Source: Branchiostoma floridae (taxonomy: Eukaryota; Chordata; Leptocardii; Amphioxiformes; Branchiostomatidae). From it: a stretch of 64,000 nucleotides of DNA. This document shows, in pieces, positions 37,563 to 64,000 of the stretch (positions within the stretch are counted from its first letter, which is position 1; each line of letters opens with the position of its first letter). A program made the translations under genes and the position numbers. Location of the stretch: assembly GCF_000003815.2 (NCBI RefSeq), contig NC_049995.1, positions 116,845-180,844 on the forward strand, in the 5' to 3' direction. The notes below the pieces were generated by a model. The model was given only the letters and a program-made list of their open reading frames with translations, was not told the DNA's origin and searched no databases.

Positions 37563-38279
37563 CAGGGCTCAAAATACTACCTGCTTATGCAGGTTAGTAC
37601 AGGTAAAATTGGAGCTGTGTAGGTATTTCTGGTATCTTCCTGTACCTAACCTGCACTGGTCCATGTACTGGGTATATACAGGTTAGTGCAGTTAAATTGA
37701 AGCTGTGTAGGTATTTCTGGTGTCTACCTGCACCTAACCTGCACTGGTCCATGTAATGGGTATATGCAGGTTAGTGCAGGTAAAATTGAAGCTGTGTAGG
37801 TATTTCTGGTGTCTACCTGCACCTAACCTGCACTGGTCCATGTAATGGGTATATGCAGGTTAGTGCAGGTAAAATTGAAGCTGTGTAGGTATTTCTGGTG
37901 TCTACCTGCACCTAACCTGCACTGGTCCATGTAAGGGGCATATACAGGTTAGTGCAGGTAAAATTGGAGCTGTGCAGGTACTTTTTTTATGTCTACCTGA
38001 ACCTAACCTTCACTGGTCCCAAATACTAGGTTTTTATACATAAACGTCATATGATGTAGGTGTACGTGGATTGATATTAGCTGCATTGAATGTTACCACT
38101 ACCACCTATATTAAGTAATATTCTGTAGAAAAGAAAAAATAGCAATGGTTCCTGAACAATTTTAGTATGAACTATACTTCAAAAATTCAGAGTGGTACAG
38201 GTAAAATTTGTCTGGTGCAGGCTATTTTCAATGTTACCTGCACCAGTGCAGGTATGCAGAAAAAGTATTTCGAGCCTTG
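37563..38279. mobile_element. hAT-like TIR element with an internal 89-bp minisatellite
   Basis: It starts CAGGGCTCAAAATAC and ends GTATTTCGAGCCTTG, close to the ends of the element at 14830-15129. GATAT flanks both sides as a 5-bp target duplication. About five 88-89 bp tandem units starting AGGTTAGTGCAGGTAAAATT (37591, 37680, 37768, 37857, 37946) fill the left two thirds. The interior is rich in CCTGCA/TGCAGG inverted motifs. No coding frame. Confidence 0.65.
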
Positions 38280-43282: not shown

Positions 43283-43860
<578 letters not shown>

Positions 43861-44109
43861 GTTGTTAGAGCGCCAGGATCCGATTTTTCGCAGCAAGCTT
43901 GACCCTTTTGGACCGGTGTCACGTCGGAAAATGTGGCAATTTCGATATTGAGCTATTTTAGAATGGCTATCGGATACTAGTGTAGATCTGTGCCTACATC
44001 AGGTAACAAGACGTCACCTTACTCAGTAAATTTGTCGATAAATACACAATATGACTTTGTCTTCACTGTGTCAACGAAATTACAAAAGTCTTGTTAGACT
44101 GTGTGCGTG

Positions 44110-44135
44110 TATGTATGTATGTATGTATGTATGTA

Positions 44136-44203
<68 letters not shown>

Positions 44204-44206
44204 CGT
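44110..44206. repeat. (GTAT)n(GT)n(GA)n microsatellite
   Basis: Three simple repeats in succession, just past the broken 3' end of the H1 gene. Confidence 0.95.
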
Positions 44207-44253
44207 GTGTGTGATCGTTCATCTTGAGGATGGGGAGGGCGGTGTTGCTGTAC

Positions 44254-44610
44254 TTATAGAAAGTTTGTTGTTTTATTACTATTTATTACTTTATTCCATG
44301 TGTGGATATGTGATTGAGATAGTTCTTTGATCTTGAAGGACCCCGACGCCCCGGTCCCTTTAACCTGTAGGAGGGTACCCTTCTCCACCAGGCTTTTCAG
44401 GGCGCGCTTTATGAAGTGCGCTTTCTTCTCCACGTCGAACTTGTAGTTGCCAGCGATGTACTTCTTGATAGCCGTCAGGGAAGAACCGGTGCGGTCCTTG
44501 AGCGCTTCCACGGCCGTCGTAACCATGACGGTGGTGGGCGGGTGAGCCGCAGGGGCCTTGGGCGCCGCGGGCTTCTTGGCCTTCTTCGGGGACGATGCTG
44601 GAGCGGACAT
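44254..44610 (-). pseudogene. Linker histone H1, cut off after the globular domain (118 aa frame)
   Basis: The N-terminal tail ([13 protein letters not shown]) and the winged-helix globular domain are normal: [28 protein letters not shown] and G-T-G-A-S-G-S-F-K. After S-F-K-I-K the frame runs into 23 unrelated residues and stops. The long Lys/Ala/Pro-rich C-terminal tail of about 100 residues is absent. No histone stem-loop follows; simple repeats lie just downstream. A deletion or insertion has removed the 3' half. If expressed, the product would bind nucleosomes weakly because the C-tail drives linker-DNA binding (family knowledge). It could also be a damaged assembly. Confidence 0.85.
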
Positions 44611-45281
44611 GCTGTCTTGTCTGCGTTAGTCGCGCAAATCAAATGAACCAGTCTGATGTCTTGTCAAGCTGGCATGAAGTACTAGTACTAAGGGCACGGA
44701 CCTGGCCGGAATCGTCACACCTTGTCTGCGTCTTATTGTCCGTCGAACTTGCGTTTCTTTTCTACATTGACAGTGGAATTCCACCCTTACCAGGCATGAC
44801 AAATGAAATTTGATTGGTTTATCAAAGTACAGCACAGTACTGTCTTTTCACGACAAGACAGCTGTGACGACTCATCCAGCCGGCCCGCACATGGAGCAAC
44901 AACAATACAACACACACACATCAAGATCCATCCGCCGCGCACAGAAAACACATCACATTTTACTACATGTCTCCTTCCTCACACTACAAACACCCGCTAA
45001 TTACAACTAAAGCAGCAAAGACCACAACATCAGCAAAAGAAAACACCGCATTCTTACGTTTCCACCAGCAAAATCACACCCAAACACACAGAATCAAGAC
45101 AACTAATAAACAAACGCAAACGATTCTTGAAAACTACAATCGTACGTGAGCACAAACAGGTGTGATTGCTTGGGTTTTGAAAGAATGTATCTTATATGCT
45201 CGTTGTTTAGTAGAGTCGACTGGGTGTGTACGTGTGTGAGATTGTTGTGAGAAAATACAGCTCTTTCTTAGACATTTGGGT

Positions 45282-45297
45282 GGCCCTGAAAAGGGCC
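45282..45297 (-). terminator. Histone 3' stem-loop (H4)
   Basis: GGCCCTTTTCAGGGCC followed by ACCCA on the minus strand, 35 bases after the H4 stop. Confidence 0.97.
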
Positions 45298-45332
45298 GGG
45301 GTTTGCTTGCGATGATAAGTCAGTCGGATCTT

Positions 45333-45742
<410 letters not shown>

Positions 45743-45743
<1 letters not shown>

Positions 45744-46129
45744 TACGAGGAGTCTAGGCCGCGACCGGTCGACCACACCTGGCCAATGGTGACGGCCTTG
45801 GTGCCCTCGCTGACGGCGTGCTTGGCTAGCTCGCCCGGCAGCAGGAGTCGCACGGCGGTTTGGATCTCTCGGCTGCTGATGGTGGAGCGCTTGTTGTAGT
45901 TAGCCAGACGGGACGACTCGGCGGCGATGCGCTCAAAAATGTCGTTGACGAAAGAGTTCATGATGCCCATTGCCTTGCTGGAGACGCCTGTGTCGGGGTG
46001 CACCTGTTTCAACACCTTGTAGATGTAGACGCCGAAGGTTTCCCTTCTCTTTCTCCTCCTTCCGCGCTTCTTGTCTCCGGCGGGCCTGGCCTTGCCGGCT
46101 TTCTTGACGGCTTTCCCACTTGGTGGCAT
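45743..46129 (-). CDS. Histone H2B with replaced C-terminus, 128 aa
   Basis: The start is placed at [10 protein letters not shown]; the frame stays open 15 codons upstream without histone character. The body is canonical: [23 protein letters not shown] through [15 protein letters not shown]. The expected end K-Y-T-S-S-K is missing and 14 other residues ([14 protein letters not shown]) follow. There is no stem-loop before the H4 promoter, which begins at the stop codon. The lysine near the C-terminus that is ubiquitinated in animal H2B is lost. It is either a recently damaged copy or an assembly deletion. It shares a divergent promoter with H2A. Confidence 0.88.
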
Positions 46130-46187
46130 GATGATGATGTTCTTGACGTAGTAGACAGCAAAGAATGTCTGCACCCGTGCCGTCTCG

Positions 46188-46316
46188 GCTTTTTATGTGG
46201 GAAAGCATGCAAATTTTTCGGGATTGTCTCGTCGAAGGTGCGGACGTTGCAGAGATTATCTCCCCTCTCTATTGGTTCGCGGTCGTAAGTTGTCGATCCA
46301 GCGGCGAGGTATAAAT
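46188..46316. promoter_or_regulatory. Divergent H2B/H2A promoter
   Basis: A 269-base gap separates the two start codons. For H2B (minus): CATAAAAAG at 46188-46196 and the octamer ATTTGCAT (46207-46214), the Oct-1 element typical of H2B promoters. For H2A (plus): TATAAA at 46310-46315. ATTGG at 46271-46275 is a CCAAT box in reverse, shared by position. Confidence 0.8.
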
Positions 46317-46380
46317 TGGTGGGGCAGTGGTGGTTTGTCTATTCATTCTTCCATCCACTTTGCCGTTTGTATAACGCTAA

Positions 46381-46773
<393 letters not shown>

Positions 46774-46814: not shown

Positions 46815-47992
46815 ACCCACATCCTTTCGAAAGACCTGTATCATATTCGCATAAAACTACACACTACATCTACACCATACACTGCATCTAAGTCAATCGC
46901 GCATTACATCTACCATTCCATGGTAGCAAACACATTGACAACCTTACGCATGTTATACGCCTGAGTAGAACAATGTGGTACTTGCGAAAGAAATGAGCGC
47001 AGTGGTCCGTTTCATGCTAGCTGACATATCTGCACATCATTTGTAGAACTATAGAGGATGACCGAGTAATACAAGCTGACATATCTGTACAATTATTTGG
47101 GTAACCGTAGAGGATGACCACGTACTGCTAGCTGACATATCTATACAATTTGGGTAACCGTAGACGGTAAACACGTAAAGCACGTGGAGTAACACGTGGA
47201 ATATCACGTGGAAGACAAGAGCATAATCCTTATGTGTGTGTGTGTGGTGGGGGGGGGGTGCCTTTGCCATATTACTTCAAATTATTGGTATGTACGCGCA
47301 CAGGCATGTGTGTTTATCGGAAGGGTATCGTAATTCAAGAAATGTGAACGATGTAGATCTTTCTGGGATATATTTGTGGCCCTGAAAAGGGCCGGGGTTG
47401 TCTTGACTTTGGGCAAGTGAAAATTTGTTTCAGACAGGTAATTTTTTGTGTGTGCTTGCCCAATAGAACAAGTGAACATTTAGAAAGCTTGTCCAACCCT
47501 GGAAACTAAATTTTCTCAACTCCGGGCACATTGTGCATTCCCTTTCTTGGGTGGGTATGCAACACAGAGTATTCCACATGATTGTGTGTTATAGTTGATA
47601 TAATTTTATCACTTTATGTCAAACTGCTCTTTCTTTGATCAGGAAAGAAAAGAGCTGTTTGAAATTCCACCCGAACTTCTTAACATTCACTCGTATCATA
47701 TCGTATCATATCCATTTTTTATTGACTGACAAAAAGAAAACAATTCTCCTTCGTACATCACAAAACCCACATATAATAGAAAAGGTGGGATCTTTTGTCT
47801 TCCACCGTCTTAAAAAAAGGAGTCCAACCCAATAACCCAGGATCTAGAGTTAGCTTTTACCAGTTTTAGACTAGTGTAGACACTTGTGATATTGTATTTT
47901 ACACTGTTTGAATCTCTTATGTTACCTGCAATTACCCCACGGGCAAGAATTTGCAATAAACTTAAATTATTATAATTGTTTTGTGGTTGTAG
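46815..47992. other. Non-coding stretch between H2A and the TPR gene
   Basis: It contains three diverged copies of a roughly 60-base unit with AGCTGACATATCTGTACAAT and GGGTAACCGTAGA (47010-47165), a GTGT/G-run at 47233-47259, and an orphan histone stem-loop at 47378-47393. No exon upstream of 47993 could be found for the TPR gene. Confidence 0.5.
47378..47393 (-). terminator. Orphan histone 3' stem-loop
   Basis: GGCCCTTTTCAGGGCC on the minus strand, with flanking sequence (GTGGCCC...GGGCCGGGGTTGTCTTGACT) that matches the H3 stem-loop region at 43233-43265. No histone coding sequence lies on its 5' side. It is a leftover of a lost or collapsed histone gene, probably H3. Confidence 0.85.
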
Positions 47993-50900
47993 TTTGCTGA
48001 CCCAGGTTCTGGAGAGATTTGAAGAGGAGAATGGTGGTTACCTGTTAGTGGCTACACTGTGTCTGTTGGAGTGTTCTAACACTGGGCTGTTAGAGACAGA
48101 ACTGCTCAGGATACTGGCTGATGAGGACAACCTCATGCCGAAAGACATGAAACATAAAAAGAAAGGTAAGGTAACAGGAGATTTTGTAATACACTCAGAG
48201 ACGTGTATTGAACGGGTGCGAGGTTCTCAAATAATTATTTCCTAAGTTTTTGTTGTCCAACTAGATGTAGTTTTTTCAGATGAAATTGCACTTTGATTTT
48301 GCCAGTGTTAAATTTTTTTAGATTTGAGTTAAAGATACAATGTAACATGCAGGTAAATGCACTTTACAAGGTTTTTAAAACTGCATTTTCTGCTTCTTCA
48401 TTGCATTTTACATGACTTGTATGGTACATTTTTGTACATGTGCACATGTTCAACAACATTGTTTTTCGACAGCGCTAGCGGTGCACAGGAAGTTTGTTCA
48501 AATCACCTGATGAATGCCTGTGCCCACAACTTTGGAAATCGTGTTAAATTCTTCTGAAATCTTGTTGTTGTTTTCAGGTAAAGGCAACTCAGAAAAGCTG
48601 GAGATTCTACCAATGGCAAAGTGGGCAGTTGTTTACCGTGGATTGCGTACATTTCTGCGCCCGTTTGGCGAGAGTGGGGAGGGCAGACTGGACTTCTACC
48701 ACAGGTCACTCAGCAAAGCTGTCAGGTCAAAGTACGTCATGAGATCATATTTTCTAGTCATAATTGATATGTGTGATTATGTCCCAAAAAATCTAAAACT
48801 AGACATATTCTTTCTTGAATTTTCTTTCCCCATCATAATCATGCATGAATTATAATAATAATAATAATAATCATCTGGTGTATTTTGCCAGCCAGTAGGT
48901 ACCCAGTATGAGTAATGAGGCTGTTTAACGTGGTCGAGGCACCTCCTCGAGCACGGGACCCCCGTTTTACGTCCCTCCCGGAAGACGATTTCGTGGAAAC
49001 TTCGTGAGGCTACAGCAATCCGGACGTCCTTGGTTGGTCCCCCATCCAAGCACTGTCCGGACCGTCGCGTTGCTTAACTTCCGAGATCGAGGGATCGGGT
49101 GACCAACGCGCCACGCGGCCGTAGTATTATCCATGAATAGAAAGAGACACTGTCTAACCATCAGTGAAATCTCTGGAAGATTTTCCCAGGTCAAATTTTT
49201 TATTACATTAACTACTGTTGCATTAGGTATTGCTAGGGCTAAGGCTTACACAACGTGTACTTATACATAAAAGTATAGTTACGGTTCATGTACATATATG
49301 TAACCATCAGAATATGGCCCATTCTTATCATACCTGGGTTGGGATTACATGTACATTGTATACTGATGATCTGGTCAGGACGGGTGTGCTGCACAATGAC
49401 AAGCACATTATAAACAGTGGAGTATGGTCCCATAAGGACTGCGACCTTTTCCTATTGCATGTCATGGCTTCCTGGTCCAGAGGCAGGGCCAGTAGCCACT
49501 GGACTATGCACGCAAATACATTGTACTGTTAGTGTAACATGCACATGTACATGTAGGTTTGCAGAGCATGGATAGTAGATAATGGGAGGTGACATGCATG
49601 TATTGTTATCTGAACAGTATCTGAACATTGTGTACTACTAGGTATTTCCTGGTGGATGGTGCAGATGAAGACAGGGTGAAGGCCAGGTACAACTGGTGGC
49701 ACAGCAAACTGGCCAACTTCTTCCAACATGTGGCCATTATCGACAGAAGGGTGGAGGTAAGACAAGTAATATTAAATCTGATTCAATAGTCTAGTAGACA
49801 AACATTTGGATGTAACGCTAGTTCATCTTTATTCAGGGTTTAACCTATATCCGTTCTTTTTAAAAACAGTATTCAGGCATATCAAGTCGACGGACTGTTG
49901 TTTTAAAATTGTGATATTTTCAAAGCATTGCAGTTATATACCACCGTTGACTTGACATCCATAAATGCATCCTGTATTCCAAAACAACGGATATAGGTTT
50001 CCCCACGGATAAAGGTGAACCAGCGTTACACAGGTCTGAATTTTGTGGTATGGTTTACTGCTGTATAGCTTTTCCAAGTCATGACTTTGCTAGCTTTCTA
50101 GCTACTAATAGAAAAGAAGCAGTATACAGTCATGATGATTGTATGCAAGAAATTTTATACCCAATTGTTGTTATCTATCAAATCTTACATTGTGTTACCC
50201 TCATGCCGTAAGCATATTCAATTTGTCAATTGATTTTAATTTCACAATCACTAAAAACTTAAATTGACTTGTCTCTTAGTCTCATGAAGGTTTAGGAAAT
50301 CAGTTCTATGAAGAAAATGATCAGTGTCACACCAAATGATTGCTGCTTGCCAAATAACTGCTGGGACACTGTTTGGGGGTTTTCAGTATACCTGAGATGA
50401 GATTGAGAGAACTTGAAAATTTTGATTGTTTGAAGCAGATTTTGGAAGGAGGATCACTCTGTGGAGACTAACCCCACCACTAATCCAACTTTAACCCTAC
50501 AATAGACCCTGACCCTAACCCTAACCCTGACCCTAACCTAAACATAACCCTAACCCTAACTTTATCTTTACCCAAGGCTTTGCTCTTAACCCTTGTAATG
50601 AATGCCAACATAACCCTAATCCAATCCTAACCCTAACCCTAACCCTTGCCATAACCCTAAGTCCTTACTTCACACACTGATGCAGAAGCAGACTGGCATT
50701 TATTTGCTTAGGTATACATATCATGTACCTACATTTATAAATGGCATCACACCTGAGCTTTGCATATCTGTAACAGACCAACCTACATATGTCTGACCTT
50801 CCAGGAGTACCCTTACCAGCTGACTAAGATAGGTGACCACAGCAGACTTGCTGAGTGCCTGCTGGACTGGGAGGTGTTTGATCATCTGTACAACGAAGAC

Positions 50901-53900
50901 TACAGCAGCCAGCTGCTGGCTTACTGGAGAGCTGTGAGCTTTTGTTTGTTTGTTGTTTGCATTGCATTGTAAACGCCTCTTGGCATAACACATCATGTTC
51001 TTACTGTACAGTACAAGCTGGATACCCGGATAGGTTTGATTGGTACATTGTATATTCACACTGGGAAAGACGTGCTTCGGGGGTGTTTCTCTTATAAAAA
51101 GGGACCTCCAATTTAACGTCCTATCTGAGGGATAAGCCCTAACCAAGCCTCATTTACACCTGTCATGAGTGAAGTGAGTAAAGTCATGCAAAGTGCTTCT
51201 CCCAAGAGCATAAGATCGGTGACAATTGCAGGATTCGAACCTTGGACCACCTAGTTCTGAGCCAAACACTCTGCCGTTGCCACATGACCCCACAAGTTTG
51301 ATTGAGAAATGCCAGTTTGTTGCCCCTATTGAAATATAGTCTTTGTATTGGGTTGGTGTGTTTCTTTGTGAGTTAGTGGTGTGAATTTGTACCTAGGAGA
51401 CTCTAACAGCAGAAATGTATGGGTCAAAGGTGCAAGAAACTTTCCAAGTAAGATGTACATGACATTGTATTACCTTAGAGTCATGAAGGCTAAAAAAAAA
51501 ACCTCCCTAAAATATATACCCTGCTACTGAAACAACAAGGAAGTCTGCTGCCCTACATGCATATGCCACTTGGCACCACATGTGTTAAACTTTGAACAAA
51601 TAAATGAACAAGAAGGAAAAGTTGCGATTATCTTTTCTTTTTTTTTTTACAAAATCTTTGTCCTCATTCCTAGGCTGGAGGAGCAGAAGAGATGGAGACG
51701 AGGTACAAGGAATCTCTGAAGGAACTAGAAAACACAGAGGGAGTCTCCAAGGAAACCCTGGGTCTGAGATACCTGCAGGTGTCCAGAGTCATGTAAGTCC
51801 TAACATCCTACATAATAATATACAGGTACCCATGTCGGCTCTACCTGGATTCTGTGCAGTGCTTTTGTTTTGTATTGTACCAGTTTCAGCCAGCCAGTGA
51901 CCTGCTAGTGACTGGGTAAGGGAGCTACAGACAGGCAGTGCAGTCGTGTTCGAGTGGTAGTTGTGATGTGATTAACTGTCTCTGATCTAACTATCTATCT
52001 AACTAACTAACTATTAACTGTCTTTGATCTAACTATATCTTCCCTCTGGAAATGTAGCACTTCTTGATAAATGTCCAATGTTAAAAGATGGAGTCTGTGT
52101 TCAATTTTGGCTACGTAAGAATGTTTTGTCTTCACCTTAGTGCTTGCCTCCAACAATCACAATACTGTTCAGTGTATGTGAACATTCAGAGAATATACAA
52201 AACAGAAATTCTCACTTTTGAGTTGGCAGTGAAGCAGTGACAGCCTGAAAAACTGCGAACATAATATCATTGAAAACATTCCCGCATTTGCAGCGCTTTA
52301 TCTGATACTTTTCCATTTAGTACTTTTTTTACTTCCTGAAATTATTATTTATTGGAATTTGAAGAACACCTCCTTCTGGACTTGAGGGCTCATTTAAGGG
52401 TTAATCATGTAAAGCTAAGGGCACAACCCGCCGAACGTGCAATTTGCCCATACTTTATTTTTGGAAGCCATGTTCGCCACGTATTTCTGAAAACGTCCAG
52501 GCTGTACAGGGCAGGCGCGTCGCACGTACTGGCACCTAGGAGGGGCGAATCCGCAGCCCGATGGCACACAAAGTTTTGCCTGCACGTAAAGTTCTATGGC
52601 GTGTCTGCATGCTCCAAAATCCGTCGGATTCCCTACGAGTGTGTATGGAGGCGGTACTTACCACTTACGGATCCCAAAAGATTGCCCATGTTTTGGCACG
52701 TAGACAGCACGGATTTGCACATACAGCAGGTGGTACCCTAATATATACATGTATAAGACAAAGTTATCCAGTCCAATGGACTGAGCTGTCATATATTGTA
52801 TGTTGTACAGGACACAGGGAGGCCGCCATGACGGTGCGGAACAGATGCTTGCTCCCGCGGTCAGGATCGAACAGGACGACCTGGGGGCGCGGCCTGAAAG
52901 GATGGCGCAGGTGTACGAACTCACCGCAACCATCTTTACTGAGGTACTGTACCATCCCAATCATACTTCTGTCTACATCTACATAGTCTAGTATAGAAAA
53001 ATGATGAATACAAAATACATGTGCCTTTATTTATATTGGACAACTACTGTATGTTATGTTATGCTTCAACATTATGGTCTCGGAATACTGGATGCATAGT
53101 ATTATATAAAAAAAATGCACTTTTGTGACAAAATCTTTTTTCATATTGTACAGTTACTGTTACAGTTACAGTAACAGTAATATTCTATCCTAACTTTTAA
53201 AACTTAGTAATAAATAAGACAACTGTTTGAAGTTGAAGACTGATAATGAAACTCTTGTAAATGAGACTGAAGTAATTACATAGTATCACAATCTGTGTCC
53301 TACACAATGTACATTGGTTAAGCACACTCATGTATCTCACTGGAATACCTAAAACTGCATGACTAGGAAATTGTGCTAAAAGTTCACCAATTCCCCCTTG
53401 TGGTCATACAATAAAATGACTGACATGCAACACATTTTTTCTAATACATGACTGTATGAAACCCCAAGATGAGCCAAACAAAAGTACCACACTCAGAATG
53501 TCTCATTCTCAATTTCGATACAAGATGACTTTATTGGAAATTGCAGCATAATGCCACTGAAACAAAGATAAAAAAATTCATAAAAAAGATGTTTGTTTTC
53601 ATAAAAAGATGTCCACCTTGTTGTGTAGCTTTGCACCATTGCTCCACTTTGCCAATTTTTACAAAAATGTAATTGTAAAAAAGAATCCCAATTTCCTCAA
53701 TGCAGTCCATACATGTACATGTTATAAACTAATACTTCAGAATCAATGTTTCACTGTATATTTTACATAGTATATGGAATTCTTTCCCTACAGAAACTGA
53801 AGCTGTATGACTTTGTGAGTCCTCAGCAGCTGACAGAGCTCAGGCCAGCGATTGACAACGGCAGGAAAGCTGTGGAACTCAGGGAAACTCTACCTCAGGA

Positions 53901-56900
53901 TGATAAAAACAAGGTAACATATTATTATCATTAAAATACTTGTATGGGGATTAATCGAGTTACCCAACATATATTTTTTAAGACTGCGTAGTACTACCTA
54001 AATGTAACATCAAGTACTACTATTAAAAAGTACAGGTACTGGTACAGAGGTCTAGGTACAGGTCCAACTGTACCTGCACTCGCCTGAACGATCAGATTCT
54101 GTTGTGTATTAGTTACGCTGTGCCTAGGTATAATTTTGGTCACGTTTGGTTTGGACTGAGACCATGAAGTAAGGAGACGAAAACTGTTTCAAAGATGGCT
54201 CTGATATCAAGTTTCAGCATAGGATTTTTTCGGTGCAAAATTTTCTTTGTGAGTGCATCTACATGTATACAGTCAAATGTAGTGTAAATTTATATTCTTG
54301 GTACAAATATACAGTACCAGTACTTCATGATCCAGTATTTTGAAACCTGTGCGGAATCATTATTTACGGTATAGTGCCGTTACTAGTGTTTTGTGTAGAA
54401 GGTGTGTGTGTGTGTGCATGCATGTGTGTGTTAATAATGCATGTGCATCTGTTTCAATGTGTTTGTGTGTATCTGTAATACTGTAATGCATCCTGGCAGT
54501 AGCATATTCAACATTTGTGACTTATACACTCTTGTTCATGCATATTATGTATTCAATAAACTCAAAGAAAGTTTAGCATTGTATTACTGTAACAATCATG
54601 TTGAATGTTGCACACAGTTCAAGCTGGCCAAGACGCGGATGCAGCTGGCCTTTAACATGGAGAGCTGGCAGGCATGTCTGCTGGACGAGAGACAGTACCC
54701 AGATGCTACAGCCTTCCTCAGTAAGGCACAGGCCTCGCAGGACGGCAACAAACACATCGACCTGGCCATGGAGACATTCAAACAGGTCAGTACATAAGTC
54801 TAGTTACATGGGCAGGATGGCAACAAACACATCGACCTGGCCATGGAGACGTTCAAACAGGTCAGTACATAAGTCTAGTTACATGGGCAGGATGGCAACA
54901 AACACATCGATCTGGCCATGGAGACATTCAAACAGGTCAGTACATAAGTCTAGTTACATGGGCAGGACGGTAACAAACACATCGATCTGGCCATGGAGAC
55001 GTTCAAACAGGTCAGTACATAAGTCTAGTTACATGGGCAGGATGGCAACAAACACATCGATCTGGCCATGGAGACATTCAAACAGGTCAGTACATAAGTC
55101 TAGTTACATGGGCAGGATGGCAACAAACACATCGACCTGGCCATGGAGACGTTCAAACAGGTCAGTACATAAGTCTAGTTACATGGGCAGGATGGCAACA
55201 AACACATCGATCTGGCCATGGAGACATTCAAACAGGTCAGTACATAAGTCTAGTTACATGGGCAGGATGGCAACAAACACATCGATCTGGCCATGGAGAC
55301 ATTCAAACAGGTCAGTACATAAGTCTAGTTACATGGGCAGGACGGTAACAAACACATTGATCTGGCCATGGAGACATTCAAACAGGTCAGTACATAAGTC
55401 TAGTTACATGGGCAGGACGGCAACAAACACATCGATCTGGCCATGGAGACATTCAAACAGGTCAGTACAAAAGCCAGTGACATGGGCAGGACGGTAACAA
55501 ACACATCGACCTGGCCATGGAGACATTCAAACAGGTCAGTACATAAGTCTAGTTACATGGGCAGGACGGTAACAAACACATCGACCTGGCCATGGAGACA
55601 TTCAAACAGGTCAGTACATAAGTCTAGTTACATGGGCAGGACGGTAACAAACACATCGACCTGGCCATGGAGACATTCAAACAGGTCAGTACATAAGTCT
55701 AGTTCATGGGCAGGACGGTAACAAACACATCGACCTGGCCATGGAGACGTTCAAACAGGTCAGTACATAAGTCTAAGTTACATGGGCAGGACGGTAACAA
55801 ACACATCGATCTGGCCATGGAGACGTTCAAACAGGTCAGTGCGAAGTCTAGTTACATGGTGACTCATCTAATCTTAATGATTGCAGAGAAACCAGGGTTC
55901 TCCCCACAATTTCTTAGTATAGTGGAGGGCTGGCAAAAATAACCCGAACCAATAATGCGCTGCACTTTCATGAAAATGGGTTCATTTTGCAAAGACAAAG
56001 GGTGTCAAATACTACTAGTATGATATATAGATTATTGTGATTCCTTTGTTGTGAAGTGGAAAACGACTATTGTTTCGATCATGCCTAATTCACAAGTCTT
56101 TGTAGACAATGCCGACTGGAAAAGTGATGCCACTTGGCACAAAAATCTCTGTGAATTTTCATTGATTTTAGCAAAACTAACCAAGAAAATAGGTAAGAAA
56201 CACAATAAATTTCAAAAGTAGTATAGTGGAGCTAGGCTAGGAGTATAGTGGAGGGCCTCCGTTATTCCATCCTCTGGGAAGGACTCTGGAAATTTGTATT
56301 ACATTGTAGAGGGACTCATCTAAAAAGGCAAGTCTTCAAAGTAAAAAGTTGACCTTGATCTCTTGTCATTATCCCATTGATACTAACTTAAAATACAGTA
56401 GGGGGTTTATTTTTGGATAGGTTATGTATCGTGGAATACACAATCAGCAGAGTTTTTGCTCTTATGTATTCACTATAAAATGTAGAATGCCATATAACTT
56501 TTGTCAGGTCTTGTCAGGTACATTGTATTGAGCCATAGGCTGAGATTGCTTGATTTAATCAAACTTTAAGGGTACTTGTAGAGTTTAATAGAATACTGAA
56601 TGCTTTTCAGGAGAAATGACAATTTTTAAAATTTATTTTTAAACCCAGCTGCGAGACGACCGGCACCTTGCTGAAGCCATCATGACCAAGGCCATCCTAG
56701 CAGATAGAGGCAGTCAGGTCCAACTGGAGGTACGGCAGGGTTCATGCTAATTATGTATGGCAGGGTTCATGTTAACCATGTGTGATGTGGAATAGAAGAA
56801 CTCTTTTCGGTATGAAACATCAATTTGTCTTCCTAACATTGAACTTACAAAATGTAACATTAATGTATGCTGTGTTATGCTTCTGTCACAATTTTGCTGG

Positions 56901-59900
56901 ACAGGTGACTCTCAAGCCACAAATTTGACCCAGTAGACTGCCAGATACTGTTGGGGTATGTCTCAGTGTTTTCATGGATAAGGCCACTGCATCTTTTTGT
57001 CACCAGGTCCCCAGGTTGATTTTATCTGAGGTTGGGTCTTATAAAATCCGGGGCCCGGCCGGGCTCAAATTTAGCCAGATATCTACAGGGAAATTCCCAC
57101 AGCGCCCCCCAAAAAAAACAGTCAGGGCCCCATTTTCCAATGTTGATGGAAGCATTACACAATTTCTCACTGTCAGGAGCTTATTGGGCATCTTCTCTGA
57201 GAGCCTGTGACCATACAGTCAACAGAAACTGTCGACATCTGATTCCCTTAGATATCAAACATGCCTACACATGTACATGATGACTAGGGGCAGCAAATGA
57301 AACATTGATCACTCCTGTACAGACTGTTACCTGTAAACACACACCGACATGACATGATGTACATCACTTGTACAGACTGTTACCTGTACCCACACACCTA
57401 CATGATTGTGTACAATGTACATCACTCCTGTACAGACTGTTACCTGTACCCACACACCTACATGATTGTGTACAATGTACATCACTCCTGTACAGACTGT
57501 TACCTGTACCCACACACCTACATGATTGTGTACAATGTACATCACTCCTGTACAGACTGTTACCTGTAGCCTGTACACACATACACACTTACATGTGTAC
57601 ATGTACATCACTCCTGTACAGACTGTTACCTGTACACACACACCTACATGATTGTGTAACATGTACATCACTCCTGTACAGACTGTTACCTGTACCCACA
57701 CACCTACATGAATGTGTAAAATGTACATCACTCCTGTACAGACTAACCTGTACACACACACCTACATGATTGTGTGCAATGTACATCACTCCTGTACAGA
57801 CTGTTACCTGTACACACACACCTACATGATTGTGTGCAATGTACATCACTCCTGTACAGACTGTTACCTGTACACACACACCTACATGATTGTGTACAAT
57901 GTACATCACTCCTGTACAGACTGTTACCTGTACACACACACCTACATGATTGTGTACAATGTACATCACTCCTGTACAGACTGTTACCTGTACACACACA
58001 CCTACATGATTGTGTACAATGTACATCACTCCTGTACAGACTGTTACCTGTACACACACACCTACATGATTGTGTACAATGTACATCACTCCTGCACAGA
58101 CTGTTACCTGTACACACACACCTACATGATTGTGTACAATGTACATCACTCCTGTACAGACTGTTACCTGTACACACACACCTACATGATTGTGTACAAT
58201 GTACATCACTCCTGTACAGACTGTTACCTGTACACACACACCTACATGATTGTGTACAATGTACATCACTCCTGTACAGACTGTTACCTGTACACACACA
58301 CCTACATGATTGTGTACAATGTACATCACTCCTGTACAGACTGTTACCTGTACACACACACCTACATGATTGTGTACAATGTACATCACTCCTGTACAAA
58401 CTGTTACCTGTACACACACACCTACATGTACATCAGGAGTTCTCATCAGAAACTGTTGACCTAACAAGACTCCACTAACTCCCACATCAGCTGTACCAGC
58501 AGTCCCTCAGACAGTGCCTTGAATGTTACGGTGAAAACCACATCCTGACATCCCGGCTGTACATCAACATCGGGATATTCTACGAGGACCTTCAACAGTA
58601 CGAGAAGGCATACAGGCACTTCCAAAAATGGTACACGGCCTGCTATGAGGTCTATGGTCCGGACCACCCCAAGACAAAGAGAGCAGAGGGGACACTACAG
58701 GAGGATTTCTACAGAAGTATTGCACAGCAGCTGGATGGGGAGTAATAACCCCCCTGTGCACACATGGTACATTCCAGAACAAACTTGTCTCCCCCTGCTG
58801 TGTGCTGTGTTGCTGTGGCTTTCTGGATTCAATCATATTAATCAACGTGAAATCCTTGCTTTTCCTTATATATAAACTCATGCTTGTACATCAGTGTGAT
58901 AATGTTGAATGGAGATGCTGCTCCTGTCAATCAAGCAAAGCCAATCAGCAGCAGCAGCCAATGAGACCAAGCAGGACCCTCTCTGTCTCACAGGGTTGCA
59001 TCCATGTCTGTTTTCTACCATGGCAACATTACGATTCTTCCATGGCAACTGCTCTGAAGATTTTACACTACTTTTCCCTCCACTGAGAGCCTTTCAGCGC
59101 CATACCAGGTTTTCTTAAAACTCACATCACTATACTGTTCAATTACCAGTCTCAAAGTCCTTCTACAGCAACAGCTTCTTTCCTGGGACTGTCAAACTGT
59201 GGAACTCTCTCGAAGCAAACTGTTTCCCTCCTTTTTGCAACCTTTCAGCCTTCAAAATTAATGATGTACCTCAACATGTATCTCCTTAGATGATTCTTTC
59301 CACATGATGATCCAACACCTTAGTTCATTACCTTGGAGTGGTGCAATGGACTTACATGTAGCTACATTGTAGTAGTACCAGTTGTCCAATCCACCTTTAC
59401 TGCAGCTTGCATCTTCAGCCAAGCACATCAGCCCATCCCTACTCTTTTTGATAAGTGTGTTGGGTTCTTTAAGGGCGGAGGGTATGACTGGATGAATGTG
59501 TTGAGAATTGTTATTCAAGAATCTGAATTGTTATGCAAGAATCTGATTTGCTATCATTTTCAGTTGGAACTGTCTGAATAAACTTCACCCTAAAAGCACA
59601 GTGTGGCATTGTATAACAGCAGGGTGATTTGCCCATAGGTTCTGGGTTTTAATCCCCTGACATGCTCAATCATTGTGACCTTGAAAACAGCACTTCACAA
59701 AAAATTCCTCCTTTCACTCAGGTAAAAAAATGTGTACCTATGGCTTCAGTTAGGGATGTTCATGTTTGAGGAGAGCCAAAACCTACCACTGGGACTTATC
59801 AAAAAGGGAAGGTCCCTTTCTGGTGTGAGTGTATCCATCCAGATATGCTGCCTCACTCTCCAGTACAAACTTCTGTGTTACTCCATCAGGCAGTTTACTG

Positions 59901-61068
59901 GGTTACAAAAAATACATGTAATGTACAGAACAAACAGGATACATACATTACATACACACAAAACAAACAAACAGTTGGCTGGTGACAAGCCATGCTTCAA
60001 CTGACCTGTACCTCTTTATTTCTTTCTTTTTCCTTTTTTTAACTTACTGATCACGTCTTATATTCATCTGGTGTTGTCTGACATGCAAGTGAGTCTAATA
60101 ATTTGTGCAGTGTTATCTGAATCTACTGTACTGTTACATGGTATTGTACTTTTTGAATAATGTCTATTCATAACAGTTACTGTTAATCATACTCCTTTCA
60201 TTTTACTAATTATGATAATTTGGACAAGGATGTTCAACTATAATTGTGTAATCAGACATGTATGAGAGACCAATCACATCAAAATTTATTTTTTTGGGCC
60301 AAACTAATCTTGGTTTTTGGATTCACTATTTTTGTGTGGATGACTTCTGCAAGGACATAGATTGTTGCTCATTTAAACTCATGAAAACTTTTTGCACGCT
60401 CACTCCAGTTTTGAGGTTCTTAGGGGATGTCATCTATATACATGCATGTAATAAAATCAATATCATCGTACATGTAAAAGAATTACAGTGATAATTTTGT
60501 CATCAAATCTAAAAAATGGAACGGAACTCACCTTTGAGAAGTTATTTTGTGGCTGATGAATTCAAAACAGTCACAGGATATTGAAGATTTCTTTTGAACA
60601 ACCAGTAAATACTGTCTTTGTATCAGAGCTAACTGGAGTGCTGCGTATGTAGCCAATGTATTACTAAGTAATGATTGTTAATGTTTGTTGTTTGGGTAAA
60701 AGAAATCTCCAATATCCTAATGTTTTACCGAATCTAATGTAACTTCAAAAACAATCATGTTTACTTGCATGGATACATGAATTTGTGTTTGATCCCTTTC
60801 CCTACAGCTGTATGAAGAAGCCCTGGCCCTGTGTTTACAGACCTACGGAGAGAACCACATCCTGACCTCCCGACTCTACATCAATGTGGGCATCTACTAC
60901 GAGGACAGGGGGCAGTACAGGGACTCCTACAAACACTTCAAGAAGTGGTACGAGACGTGTCTGGTCGTGTTTGGTCCCGACCACCCCAAGACAAAGCGAG
61001 CCGCGGGGACGCTGGAAGAGCCGTTATACCGTAGGGTACGGCGGATGGACGAACGGGGGGAACTGTAG
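47993..61068 (+). CDS. TPR protein with NACHT-type winged-helix start (12 exons, 5' end not found)
   Basis: Exons: 47993-48165, 48578-48731, 49642-49756, 50805-50933, 51674-51792, 52811-52943, 53794-53913, 54618-54785, 56649-56729, then alternative last exons 58491-58745 or 60808-61068. All junction phases agree. The first exons read V-L-E-R-F-E-E-E-N ... L-L-E-C-S-N-T-G-L-L-E-T-E-L-L and L-D-F-Y-H-R-S-L-S-K-A-V. This looks like the winged-helix segment that follows NACHT ATPase domains in nephrocystin-3 and TTC41-like proteins. The rest is helical repeats ending in a TPR module with G-E-N-H-I-L-T-S-R-L-Y and G-P-D-H-P-K-T-K-R. A NACHT domain would be expected further 5', but none is seen between 46.8 and 48 kb. 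Either the histone cluster lies inside an intron of this gene, or the gene is 5'-truncated. It is probably a scaffold; the role is unknown. Confidence 0.8.
48849..49124 (-). mobile_element. 5S rRNA-derived SINE
   Basis: On the minus strand the head (from 49124) reads TACGGCCGCGTGGCGCG, then CTCGGAAGTTAAGCAAC and GTGCTTGGATGGGGGACC. These are the landmarks of 5S rRNA, including its internal promoter region. A tail follows with GGACGTAAAACGGGGGTCCC, matching GGACGTTAAATGGAGGTCCC in the tRNA-headed SINE at 6271-6722. The 3' end is an (ATT)n run at 48849-48872. It lies in an intron of the TPR gene. Confidence 0.8.
49811..50030. mobile_element. Foldback MITE
   Basis: Ends TGTAACGCTAGTTCA and its near complement (50016-50030). 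Further matched inner segments (CCTATATCCGTT / AACGGATATAGG; TCAAGTCGACGG / CCGTTGACTTGA) make most of the element one long hairpin. A second copy is at 63100-63309. No coding frame. It lies in an intron of the TPR gene. Confidence 0.75.
50490..50660. repeat. Interstitial telomere repeats (CCCTAA-type)
   Basis: Many CCCTAA units, partly in register and partly degenerate, in an intron of the TPR gene. The strand is opposite to the tract at 10358-10537. Confidence 0.8.
51100..51293 (-). mobile_element. tRNA-derived SINE, diverged copy
   Basis: Minus strand: A-box-like GTGGCAACGGCAGAGTG, B box GGTTCGAATCC, then CTTGGGAGAAGCACTTTGCA and GGACGTTAAATTGGAGGTCCC. It is the same family as 6271-6722, 5' part only. 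Confidence 0.7.
52352..52745. other. CpG-rich intronic block
   Basis: A stretch clearly richer in CG dinucleotides than its surroundings, in an intron of the TPR gene. Frames stay open for 130-140 codons, but none has recognised domains. It may be a repeat insertion or a small unmethylated island. Confidence 0.35.
54618..54785 (+). CDS. TPR exon at the head of the 75-bp tandem array
   Basis: A phase-0 exon of 56 codons, F-K-L-A-K-T-R-M-Q-L-A-F ... ending D-G-N-K-H-I-D-L-A-M-E-T-F-K-Q. The last 15 codons and the donor (CAG then GTCAGT) are the founder sequence of the array that follows. The frame joins 53913 upstream and 56649 downstream without a shift. Confidence 0.85.
54737..55858 (+). repeat. 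75-bp tandem array containing the exon end and its splice donor, about 14 extra copies
   Basis: Donor-like GTCAGT sites lie at 54786, 54861, 54936, 55011, 55086, 55161, 55236, 55311, 55386, 55461, 55535, 55610, 55685, 55759 and 55835, mostly 75 apart. Each unit is 45 nt that would encode D-G-N-K-H-I-D-L-A-M-E-T-F-K-Q, bounded by GGGCAG on the left and GTCAGT on the right, plus a 30-nt spacer with stops. Copies differ by few point changes (GATGG/GACGG, GACCTG/GATCTG, ACATTC/ACGTTC), so the expansion is recent. Confidence 0.95.
57302..58430. repeat. 60-bp minisatellite, about 19 copies
   Basis: Unit GTACATCACTCCTGTACAGA CTGTTACCTG plus TACACACACACCTACATGAT TGTGTACAAT (60 bases), highly uniform from 57842 to 58420 and more varied at the left. 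It lies in the intron just before last exon A. Because 60 is divisible by three and the unit lacks stops in several frames, long false frames appear on both strands. Confidence 0.97.
58491..58745 (+). CDS. Alternative last exon A of the TPR gene
   Basis: Phase-0 acceptor (CCACATCAG), 84 codons and a TAA stop. It encodes L-Y-Q-Q-S-L-R-Q-C-L-E-C-Y-G-E-N-H-I-L-T-S-R-L-Y and Y-G-P-D-H-P-K-T-K-R-A-E-G-T-L-Q-E-D-F-Y-R. It is a clear paralogue of exon 60808-61068. A poly(A) signal lies at 59577-59582. Confidence 0.85.
   Translation: MYQQSLRQCLECYGENHILTSRLYINIGIFYEDLQQYEKAYRHFQKWYTACYEVYGPDHPKTKRAEGTLQEDFYRSIAQQLDGE
59146..59289 (+). mobile_element. LINE remnant (C-terminal reverse-transcriptase tail)
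   Basis: The frame reads S-F-Y-S-N-S-F-F-P-G-T-V-K-L-W-N-S-L and ends in a stop. S-F-F-P-R-T-x-x-x-W-N-S-L is the typical C-terminal signature of CR1/L2-like LINE proteins. Only about 47 codons remain, inside the 3' UTR of the exon-A transcript. Confidence 0.7.
59577..59582 (+). terminator. Poly(A) signal after last exon A
   Basis: AATAAA about 830 bases after the stop of exon A, before exon B. It would allow transcripts to end with exon A. Confidence 0.55.
60808..61068 (+). CDS. Alternative last exon B of the TPR gene
   Basis: Phase-0 acceptor (TTCCCTACAG), 86 codons and a TAG stop. It encodes L-Y-E-E-A-L-A-L-C-L-Q-T-Y-G-E-N-H-I-L-T-S-R-L-Y and F-G-P-D-H-P-K-T-K-R-A-A-G-T-L-E-E-P-L-Y-R. 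The E-P-x-Y-R end seems closer to the usual family ending than exon A, so B is probably the ancestral end (inference). Confidence 0.85.
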   Translation: MYEEALALCLQTYGENHILTSRLYINVGIYYEDRGQYRDSYKHFKKWYETCLVVFGPDHPKTKRAAGTLEEPLYRRVRRMDERGEL

Positions 61069-63099
61069 GGCCACAGTAGGGGTTTGTTTATGCTGAAGTT
61101 AGGCGCTTGCTTTGTCAGACACTGACAAAAAGTTTGAGTTAAAATATTTGTGCGCCATACATTGTTTCTAAAAAAAAACAGCACGTTTTTATGTAATAAC
61201 AGTAATAAGATTGGGTATTCATCATCATATGGCCTCTTTTGGTCAATATTGACCATGGTAAAATCCTAATTGATATCAGCCCTACAGCGTCGACTGTGGT
61301 TTAACAGTCTTATACGAGAATGACAGTCTCTGCCACATGTATATTATTTGATATTACATGATTGGATATTACATTATGGAAAAGTCAAGTCAAAATCTGT
61401 CGTGACATCAGGAACACTTCTTAAGAATTTTAGTTTTGAAAGTCTTTTTTAAAAGGTGATTGATTAGTATTTAATAAGGGTAGTATAAAAACATCTATAC
61501 TGTCAAGGTGTCACATTTGTATGCTAAAAATTAGCTAAAAGTTTAGGATGTATGTAAATATGATGTTTTTACATTGATAAATGAACATGTTTATTTTTCA
61601 AGCACCTTCCCCTTTACTATGCAACTTATTGCAATCACACAGTATTGTGCAATTGGTATTGATATGTCCAGACTATAGTTTGCTATTGGTGGACTTAGAA
61701 TTAGTTAACCAATCAGAGCAGTGCTAGGTAATTTGTGTACATAGTGGTGGGTTGGACTGGAGAAATGTTTTCAGAATAATTGATCCATGTTAGCTACAAA
61801 AAAAGGACAAAGAAATCAAAATGTAAATTGGAAATTGTTACTTTTGATAGAAATATCAACAAACATTAGGTAAGAGGTGCTTCATCCATTCTGTAGTTAA
61901 AATAATCATGAACCAGGACTACACCAATGTGATTAATTGGTTCTTTTTAGTTTGTGCGCTAAGGATGTACAAATGCACATGACCCATATCATTGGGTGCC
62001 TTGTAGAAATGTGGACATAATGTGAATATTATAATGACAAAGATACGTGCAGTCGTTAACAAAAACACACAGTAACAACATCAAGGCCAAGAACAATATA
62101 TACTAAGTGCAAGTCATGCCTCTGCTGCAATATGTGAAAAATCATGTATATTTTTCTTAACTTGCCCATCCTAAGACACGTCCTATTGTTAAATGTGTTG
62201 TATTAATGGTTGCCATTAGTGCCTCAGGTCTGTATTGAAAGTTTGATATGAATATTTCTGTGTAGTTAGAAGTACACTGTACTGGTGTACCGTTCTGTTG
62301 ATAATCAATTCAACATCAGGTATTTTTCAGTCTTGTAGTTTTGATGAGAAGCAGAGGATTTCATGGATAGTTTGTGGAAACATTTTATAATATGGGATCA
62401 GAATATAACATGGCATTATTATTAGATATGCAGTTTGGTTTTCCAACTTGGGAGCTTGACTCTGATTGTTTTTTTTTCACTGTATAAAAAGTATATTGAT
62501 TTCACATCCCGTTACAGGATGCGTCAGAGATTTTCTGTGTTGTCATTTCTTTGAGACACTCTTAATCGGAAACACAGCATCAAGTTCTTAAACTAGATCT
62601 TATCACATCAGCTATTACATTCAGGCAAAGTCAAACACAAAGAATCATTGTGCTAGTAATTATGGTAAGTAAAACAAGTTGATTCATGCCTATTATTATT
62701 AATTATAATAGTAAAATGTGCATCATGCGCCACGAGATACAATGAGAGAGAACTGGTTTATTTAAACACACAATTTCAGGTACAAGATGATAGTCCGAGG
62801 ACTAAATTGTCTCATACGATGTACTTAAGAGACTGGCGCTTAAGAGTGTAATGAAACACCCTGCCTAAGTGCATAAATCTCATAATAATCACCAACATTC
62901 ACATTTGATTAAACTGCACAACTTGAAAGTGTGGATCTCCAAACACACACAGAAGATTCAAATGTAAAATCAAAATATGTCGAAGTCGAAAGCCTGGGGG
63001 AAAAGACGCCAGGTCAATTGGATCCTACGGACATAGCGACTCTAGTCGGGCTCGCAAGCACGCACGCACAATTAGCAAACATTTGCAAGGCCTGCATGA
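61069..63099. other. 3' flank of the TPR gene and intergenic DNA
   Basis: AT-rich DNA. A perfect 16-bp palindrome TGGTCAATATTGACCA lies at about 61240-61255. No clear AATAAA follows exon B closely, and no gene is seen. Confidence 0.4.
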
Positions 63100-63309
63100 T
63101 GTAACTCTAGTTAACTTTTATCCGCAAGGTAACCTATATCCGTTGTTTAAGAAAAGATGTTTAGGGATATCAAGTCGAATTTGGAATTAAAATATTTCGA
63201 AAATAGTGCAATTTGAAACAACTGTCCGTCGACTTGATGTCCACAAATATCCCGTTTTTAGACTATCGGATATAGGTTACCCAGCGGATAAAGGTGAACT
63301 TGCGTTACA
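63100..63309. mobile_element. Foldback MITE, second copy
   Basis: Ends TGTAACTCTAGTTAAC and GAACTTGCGTTACA. It shares CCTATATCCGTTGTTT, ATATCAAGTCGA and CGGATATAGGTT with 49811-50030. The flanks contain ATGA on both sides, but no convincing target duplication. Confidence 0.75.
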
Positions 63310-63383
63310 TATGATTCTGCTGTCGAAGCCGAGACAAAAACGCACTGACTCGCGCTGTATCGGCGCTTACGTCAACGGACTGG

Positions 63384-63455
63384 AATCCGGAAGTGATCTG
63401 ATGACATCAAAAAGTCCCCTAAAACGTCACCCCTGCCCTGAGGCAGCCATGACAG
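63384..63455 (+). promoter_or_regulatory. Possible promoter and first coding exon
   Basis: CCGGAAGTG at 63387-63395 is an ETS-type motif common in housekeeping promoters, and TTACGTCA lies just upstream. An ATG at 63449 (after GGCAGCC) is followed by ACAG and GTGCGTAAG, a good donor at 63456. The first exon would contribute only M-T plus one base. No later exon is visible before the window ends. Confidence 0.35.
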
Positions 63456-64000
63456 GTGCGTAAGGCCCTAATGTTTCCCTTCCTTTATTAGCGAACACAG
63501 TGTGGTATTTAAAGACCAATCCATTCGTCATTTTTCCACTCAGCTTTGTAAATTCTGGCGCACACACAGAATACTTAGAAGAAGATTTAAGATAAATATT
63601 GATGATGGCTGAGTAATTCCCTAACATTACATGGCTGTAGTAATGCACAGCGTTCATATATCTGGTTCAAAGTTTTCCCTCGTCTTTCTTTACATTGGTT
63701 TTCTGAAAATGACGTAAGATCAGCAAGAAGCGGTAAGCTATTACTAACACACTAAGTCAAACCATTCTGCGTCTATGTGTCCCCAATATACAAGGTCATT
63801 CTGTTACCCGTAACGTCATGTTTGTTTCAGTGATATCATAACTTACCGCTACTATTGTGTATATAACGTTACTACCTTACCATTTCAGTATACATAACTT
63901 GAATTTTAAGCATACGTCTTTTGAAATATTACTTCAAAAGTTGGCCCATTTTTATTGTCCTTCATCGCATACAACACCATTCCATAACGATGTCACAAGT
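63456..64000. other. Window end, no gene features seen
   Basis: AT-rich DNA, possibly the first intron of a gene starting at 63.4 kb. Confidence 0.35.

Follow-up and report, generated by a model that had tools for sequence, protein, structure and literature searches.

The 64,000 nucleotides of lancelet DNA analysed here (the window) contain, on the plus strand, a gene for a TPR protein whose eighth exon ends inside a long minisatellite. The splice sites of the gene model were picked by eye from GT-AG borders and an open frame; nine exons and two alternative last exons, bordered by GT and AG, give a single open frame. By Pfam, the product contains TPR_12 (45.5 bits; cut-off 30.1) and TPR_10 (36 bits; cut-off 27.5), and TPR_NPHP3 reaches 61 bits, under its cut-off of 100. 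A search for relatives of known structure gave no match at an E-value of 0.01. The window lies on contig C17, and a second copy of the TPR gene is located on contig C15. The features concerned are listed below.

47993..61068, plus strand: model of the TPR gene, with nine exons followed by either of two last exons (58491-58745 or 60808-61068)
47993..48165, plus strand: first modelled exon within the window; both of its borders are tandemly duplicated in the C15 copy
54618..54785, plus strand: exon 8, which with its last 49 nt supplies the exonic portion of array unit 1; donor GTCAGT at 54786
54737..55859, plus strand: array of 15 units of 74-76 nt, from TRF and unit-by-unit reading
55786..55859, plus strand: unit 15, the distal end of the array, with an altered intron part (GTCAGTGCGAAG...), running into TGACTCAT
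56649..56729, plus strand: exon 9, the presumed splice partner of exon 8
56730..56781, plus strand: 2.1 copies of a 25-nt repeat that begins directly behind exon 9, with the first base of the intron; shared with the C15 copy

The two alternative last exons are similar to each other, each with an acceptor and a stop codon, and differ at 34 of 84 residues; both are conserved in the C15 copy (missense codons, 0 of 84 and 1 of 86). Another intronic minisatellite, at 57308-58428, consists of 60-nt units (15.8 copies from 57475), and the equivalent place in C15 is occupied by 95-nt units in 7.5 copies. Just upstream of the gene, a histone cluster was recognized by eye at 43283-46773 (H3, H1, H4 and H2B on the minus strand and H2A on the plus strand), and interstitial telomere-like CCCTAA repeats were found at 50506-50660. 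An 89-nt tandem repeat at 37586-38019 (4.9 copies), whose unit and flank match sequence inside the C15 gene copy, is probably part of a dispersed element.

The 11 exons of the two gene copies are 95-99% identical and free of gaps, and exons 1-9 give a dN/dS of 0.047 over 397 codons (24 synonymous and 4 missense codons). The longer aligned blocks that include introns are mostly 77-92% identical, with many gaps. This homology begins at position 47979 of the window and extends to an N gap at 64001-65779, and the C17 segment (47979-64000) could be either a paralogue of the C15 locus or a divergent haplotype of it that was misplaced. DUF4062 (25.5 bits; cut-off 24.7) is encoded by one reading frame upstream of the gene on C15, and another frame there has a P-loop-like motif, seen by eye and below the Pfam cut-off. 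A total of 25 upstream C15 frames of at least 70 amino acids were compared with the 58 kb that precede exon 1 on C17; the four domain-like frames had no match there, and only two frames matched, these being repeats or other sequence. Judged on frames of this size, the 5' part of the gene is apparently missing from the window copy.

Run on the window, TRF reported the minisatellite at 54737-55859 with a period of 75, 15.0 copies and 96% matches (score 1999). Unit by unit, it consists of the real end of exon 8 followed head-to-tail by 14 further copies, so that the original prediction, made from the letters alone, of an exon end amplified together with its splice donor is confirmed. Each unit joins the last 49 nt of exon 8 (GCAG and a 45-nt block) to the first 26 nt of the intron. 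The blocks start at 54741, 54816 and so on up to 55790 (the last block being 55790-55834); 11 of the 14 spacings are 75 nt, and the remainder are 74, 74 and 76 nt. As also predicted, every block stands in phase 0 directly behind an AG, here within GCAG, and directly before GTCAGT (15 of 15 units), and all 15 are translated into the same 15 amino acids, DGNKHIDLAMETFKQ. Stop codons had been expected in the spacers: an in-frame TAA is indeed present in 13 of the 14 inter-block stretches, the exception being that of unit 10 (29 nt), which is stop-free in this frame. At the repeat junction of either gene copy, TTACATGG is followed by GCAGGAC, and the last unit continues into TGACTCAT. The 26-nt intron parts are identical in 11 of the 15 units; of those that differ, unit 15 is the distal edge and unit 10 lies inside the array. 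An array of this kind is beyond chance by far, its number of units being that of one assembly, and the near-identity of the units makes recent growth plausible.

The AG before the block belongs to an exon codon, CAG (TCG CAG GAC in unit 1), and the GCAG that ends each apparent spacer is therefore the start of the next unit and not an intronic acceptor. An acceptor copied within each unit was rejected on this ground. A tandem duplication of the whole exon was rejected as well, only the last 49 of its 168 nt being copied and the acceptor at 54617 lying outside the unit.

Minisatellites spanning an exon-intron border, termed mirages, have been described in amphioxus for Adh3 and the globin genes BflGb6 and BflGb9 (PMC3087553). 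By its testable anatomy, the present array is a many-unit instance of this already known lancelet class. Each unit spans the border (49 nt exonic, 26 nt intronic), the splice signal GTCAGT is copied in 15 of 15 units, and the centre is homogenised to the exclusion of the distal unit 15, albeit imperfectly, since unit 10 differs inside the array. The difference in length between haplotypes that characterizes mirages may or may not have a counterpart in the 15 versus 2 units of two gene copies on different contigs. Compared with the Adh3, BflGb6 and BflGb9 mirages, as far as the available text of PMC3087553 presents them, the array has a 75-nt unit in 15 units, with donor and peptide kept in every one. 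The 60- and 108-bp tandem repeats of lancelet PGBD5, which abut 5' splice sites and number 2 to 7 copies depending on the assembly, are imperfect and described without RNA confirmation in the available portion of PMC3902484, whereas the units found here are near-identical and more numerous.

At the end of exon 8 in the C15 copy, this duplication recurs with the same breakpoints but comprises just 2 units. The anticipated variation in copy number is thus found, although between two gene copies on different contigs that may be alleles or paralogues. It is very improbable that the array is an artefact of assembly, with a wrong number of units or with haplotypes merged into a single array. The published B. 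floridae assembly, in the part of its description available, combines an earlier shotgun with linkage data and merges haplotypes, and the N gap mentioned above lies past the window end; but the two-unit form with the same breakpoints recurs at a second place, the units are mosaic and the array contains no N.

The splicing potential of the units was scored with a small position matrix derived from 22 acceptors and 18 donors of both gene copies. All 15 array donors, the real one among them, score 6.03, a value above that of 97% of 560 background GTs. Scores of the 14 array acceptors range from -2.9 to 1.8 (as against -3.7 to 8.2 for the 22 real ones), their pyrimidine content is 0.29-0.47 (0.47-0.82 in the real ones), and a typical array acceptor exceeds 78% of 383 background AGs in introns of the TPR gene. 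By these scores, the array acceptors are weak, not dead. As to the suggested bank of competing donors, extension of exon 8 to donors 2-15 was rejected, since each such extension runs into a stop at residue 60 (14 of 14). The proposed lengthening of the TPR stack in 15-residue steps is not supported either. A TPR has 34 residues, more than twice such a step, and in the Pfam search with a 207-aa query the block, at residues 82-96, lies outside the best TPR_12 stretch (122-169) and is touched by the sub-threshold TPR_NPHP3 stretch (86-190) alone.

Inclusion of a single block keeps the frame (3 of 13 shown). The blocks could then be optional cassettes, 45-nt in-frame inserts in some mRNAs under direct selection, with an AG and a GT at each phase-0 block, an undisturbed frame upon single inclusion, variation that is synonymous only and acceptors ahead of most background AGs. 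This is improbable. The acceptors have little pyrimidine tract and score below most real ones, their AG is the coding CAG carried along by the breakpoint, adjacent blocks are just 30 nt apart, and RT-PCR on published mirages gave normal splicing, according to the available text of PMC3087553. The real acceptors that the original prediction had assigned to its cassettes are therefore not upheld. Splicing from the first donor to exon 9 is the simplest expectation and most likely.

The 15 blocks vary at five positions (in codons 1, 2, 6, 7 and 12), all of them third positions and all five synonymous. With random transitions, 15 of 45 would be synonymous, and the probability that five distinct sites are all synonymous is 0.0025, or 0.0002-0.004 under other weights, these tests being post hoc, partly overlapping and based on few sites. 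Three of the five sites involve CpG, and when these are scored as one in two, P becomes about 0.014; no corresponding CpG change of the missense kind occurs in the 15 units. When the two C15 units are added, the coding one contributes a single missense site, which leaves 5 of 6 sites synonymous (P = 0.002). Indels of one base occur in units 10, 13, 14 and 15, all four within the 26 nt of intron (P = 0.014); of the private changes, eight are in the intron part and one is in the exon part (P = 0.0013, or 0.05 with clustered changes counted once). In a tandem duplication at the acceptor of exon 1 in the C15 copy, a comparison of spare copy and exon over 98 positions shows two differences, both of them synonymous. 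Unconstrained intronic copies would rarely be expected to show such a pattern. It is nevertheless conceivable, if rather unlikely, that the array is a plain neutral mirage, whose spare units are young and unconstrained and owe their all-synonymous variation to luck or to CpG bias. There are only five variable sites, three of them with CpG, and mirages are treated as intronic repeats that do not disturb splicing in the available parts of PMC3087553 and PMC3902484. The low probabilities given above, including the one that allows for CpG, the absence of the corresponding missense CpG changes and the confinement of indels to the intron part all argue against neutrality.

All four combinations of variants are present in 5 of the 10 pairs of variable sites, and neighbouring units are rather more alike than by chance (P = 0.036), so that the units have probably exchanged sequence; two of the array variants were also found in C15 units. 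The consequences of exchange were simulated under a Wright-Fisher model (N = 3000; 15 units; third positions synonymous; missense changes in unit 1 lethal), in which half of the exchanges took place between haplotypes and the mutation rate was set per exchange rate. Twelve runs were made per setting, and arrays with 4-7 variable sites were scored, the sampled arrays being non-independent. At N*g of 3000, 300 and 30, respectively, all-synonymous arrays made up 28% of 89, 2.1% of 95 and 0 of 27 with selection, and 0 of 110, 0 of 150 and 0 of 17 when selection was absent. Two small early simulations were noisy and partly contrary: in one, 1 of 8 arrays was all-synonymous without selection, and at g = 0.3 missense changes were higher with selection than without. 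Within this model, selection on unit 1 together with exchange is sufficient for the pattern, provided that exchange is frequent.

Taken together, we favour, at a probability of roughly 0.55, a mirage-type minisatellite whose spare units are cleaned by exchange with the selected coding unit 1. As the sequence itself demonstrates, the array arose by tandem duplication of a 75-nt segment that crosses from the 3' end of exon 8 over its donor into the intron. The first duplication would predate the parting of the two gene copies, this being the simplest order of events because the breakpoints are identical in both, and would have been followed by growth to 15 units in the window copy or by shrinkage to 2 in C15. 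In the mRNA, the first donor would most likely be joined to exon 9 and units 2-15 removed as intron. The units, unit 1 included, may exchange by unequal crossing over or gene conversion, as the mosaic haplotypes suggest. A missense change arising in a spare unit could thereby be copied into the exon and would then be removed with its carrier, and the spare units are proposed to vary synonymously only because of this purging. Since any unit could overwrite the exon end, selection on the exon would reach the whole array. It is possible, and we put it forward tentatively, that the intronic units evolve like coding DNA though they are not translated, the array being an unstable store of interchangeable exon-end alleles.

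Other borders of the gene pair are duplicated too. In C15, the acceptor region of exon 1 is tandemly repeated (113 nt, 2.2 copies, 98% matches), as is its donor region (113 nt, 2.0 copies, 80%). By eye, the duplicate at this donor has lost the donor and carries one missense change; such divergence speaks against the clean-up, as not every spare copy is kept clean. A survey for other mirages covered a 200-kb sample of C15 (1,271 N). It contained 36 arrays with a period of at least 20 after merging, four of which were flagged by a crude coding detector; no clear splice-border mirage was found among the three inspected, and the fourth (185442-185556) was judged by coordinates alone. In the gene pair, this weak detector flagged three border duplications (window exon 8, C15 exon 1 acceptor and C15 exon 8), and the duplication at the exon 1 donor of C15 escaped it, as did the two 25-nt repeats. 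Elsewhere on C15, at L016:3043-3861 (C15:2013043-2013861; minus strand), the end of an apparent last coding exon (...KMKAGVYNFWYHSAMHSTEQLGDTLVSL, stop) is repeated about 2.3 times, the downstream copies being degenerate.

In the model of Rogers, cited in PMC3087553, introns are gained via tandem duplication of segments bearing AG and GT. The present array resembles that model, as outlined there, in that duplication of the segment positions an AG and a GT from which a new intron could emerge, and differs from it in that an existing donor is duplicated, adjacent blocks lie 30 nt apart and the AG is a putative acceptor only. What stands out here is that all 15 copies spell the same 15 amino acids, as if the spares were kept fit for coding. 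We could not find any coding-constraint test on the Adh3 or globin mirages in the available text of PMC3087553, and variation confined to synonymous sites in mirage units is absent from the titles and abstract openings, a narrow coverage, of publications on amphioxus minisatellites, mirages and splice-border duplication.

In short, the array adds a many-unit example to a poorly understood class of minisatellites that duplicate splice junctions, in a host gene with duplications at three further borders across its two copies. The idea that exchange with the exon preserves the coding capacity of the spare exon ends is modestly supported. If the synonymous-only pattern holds in more alleles and in other mirages, these arrays would provide a natural test of gene conversion extending purifying selection into non-coding DNA, and also a test of the proposed route from mirages to new introns.
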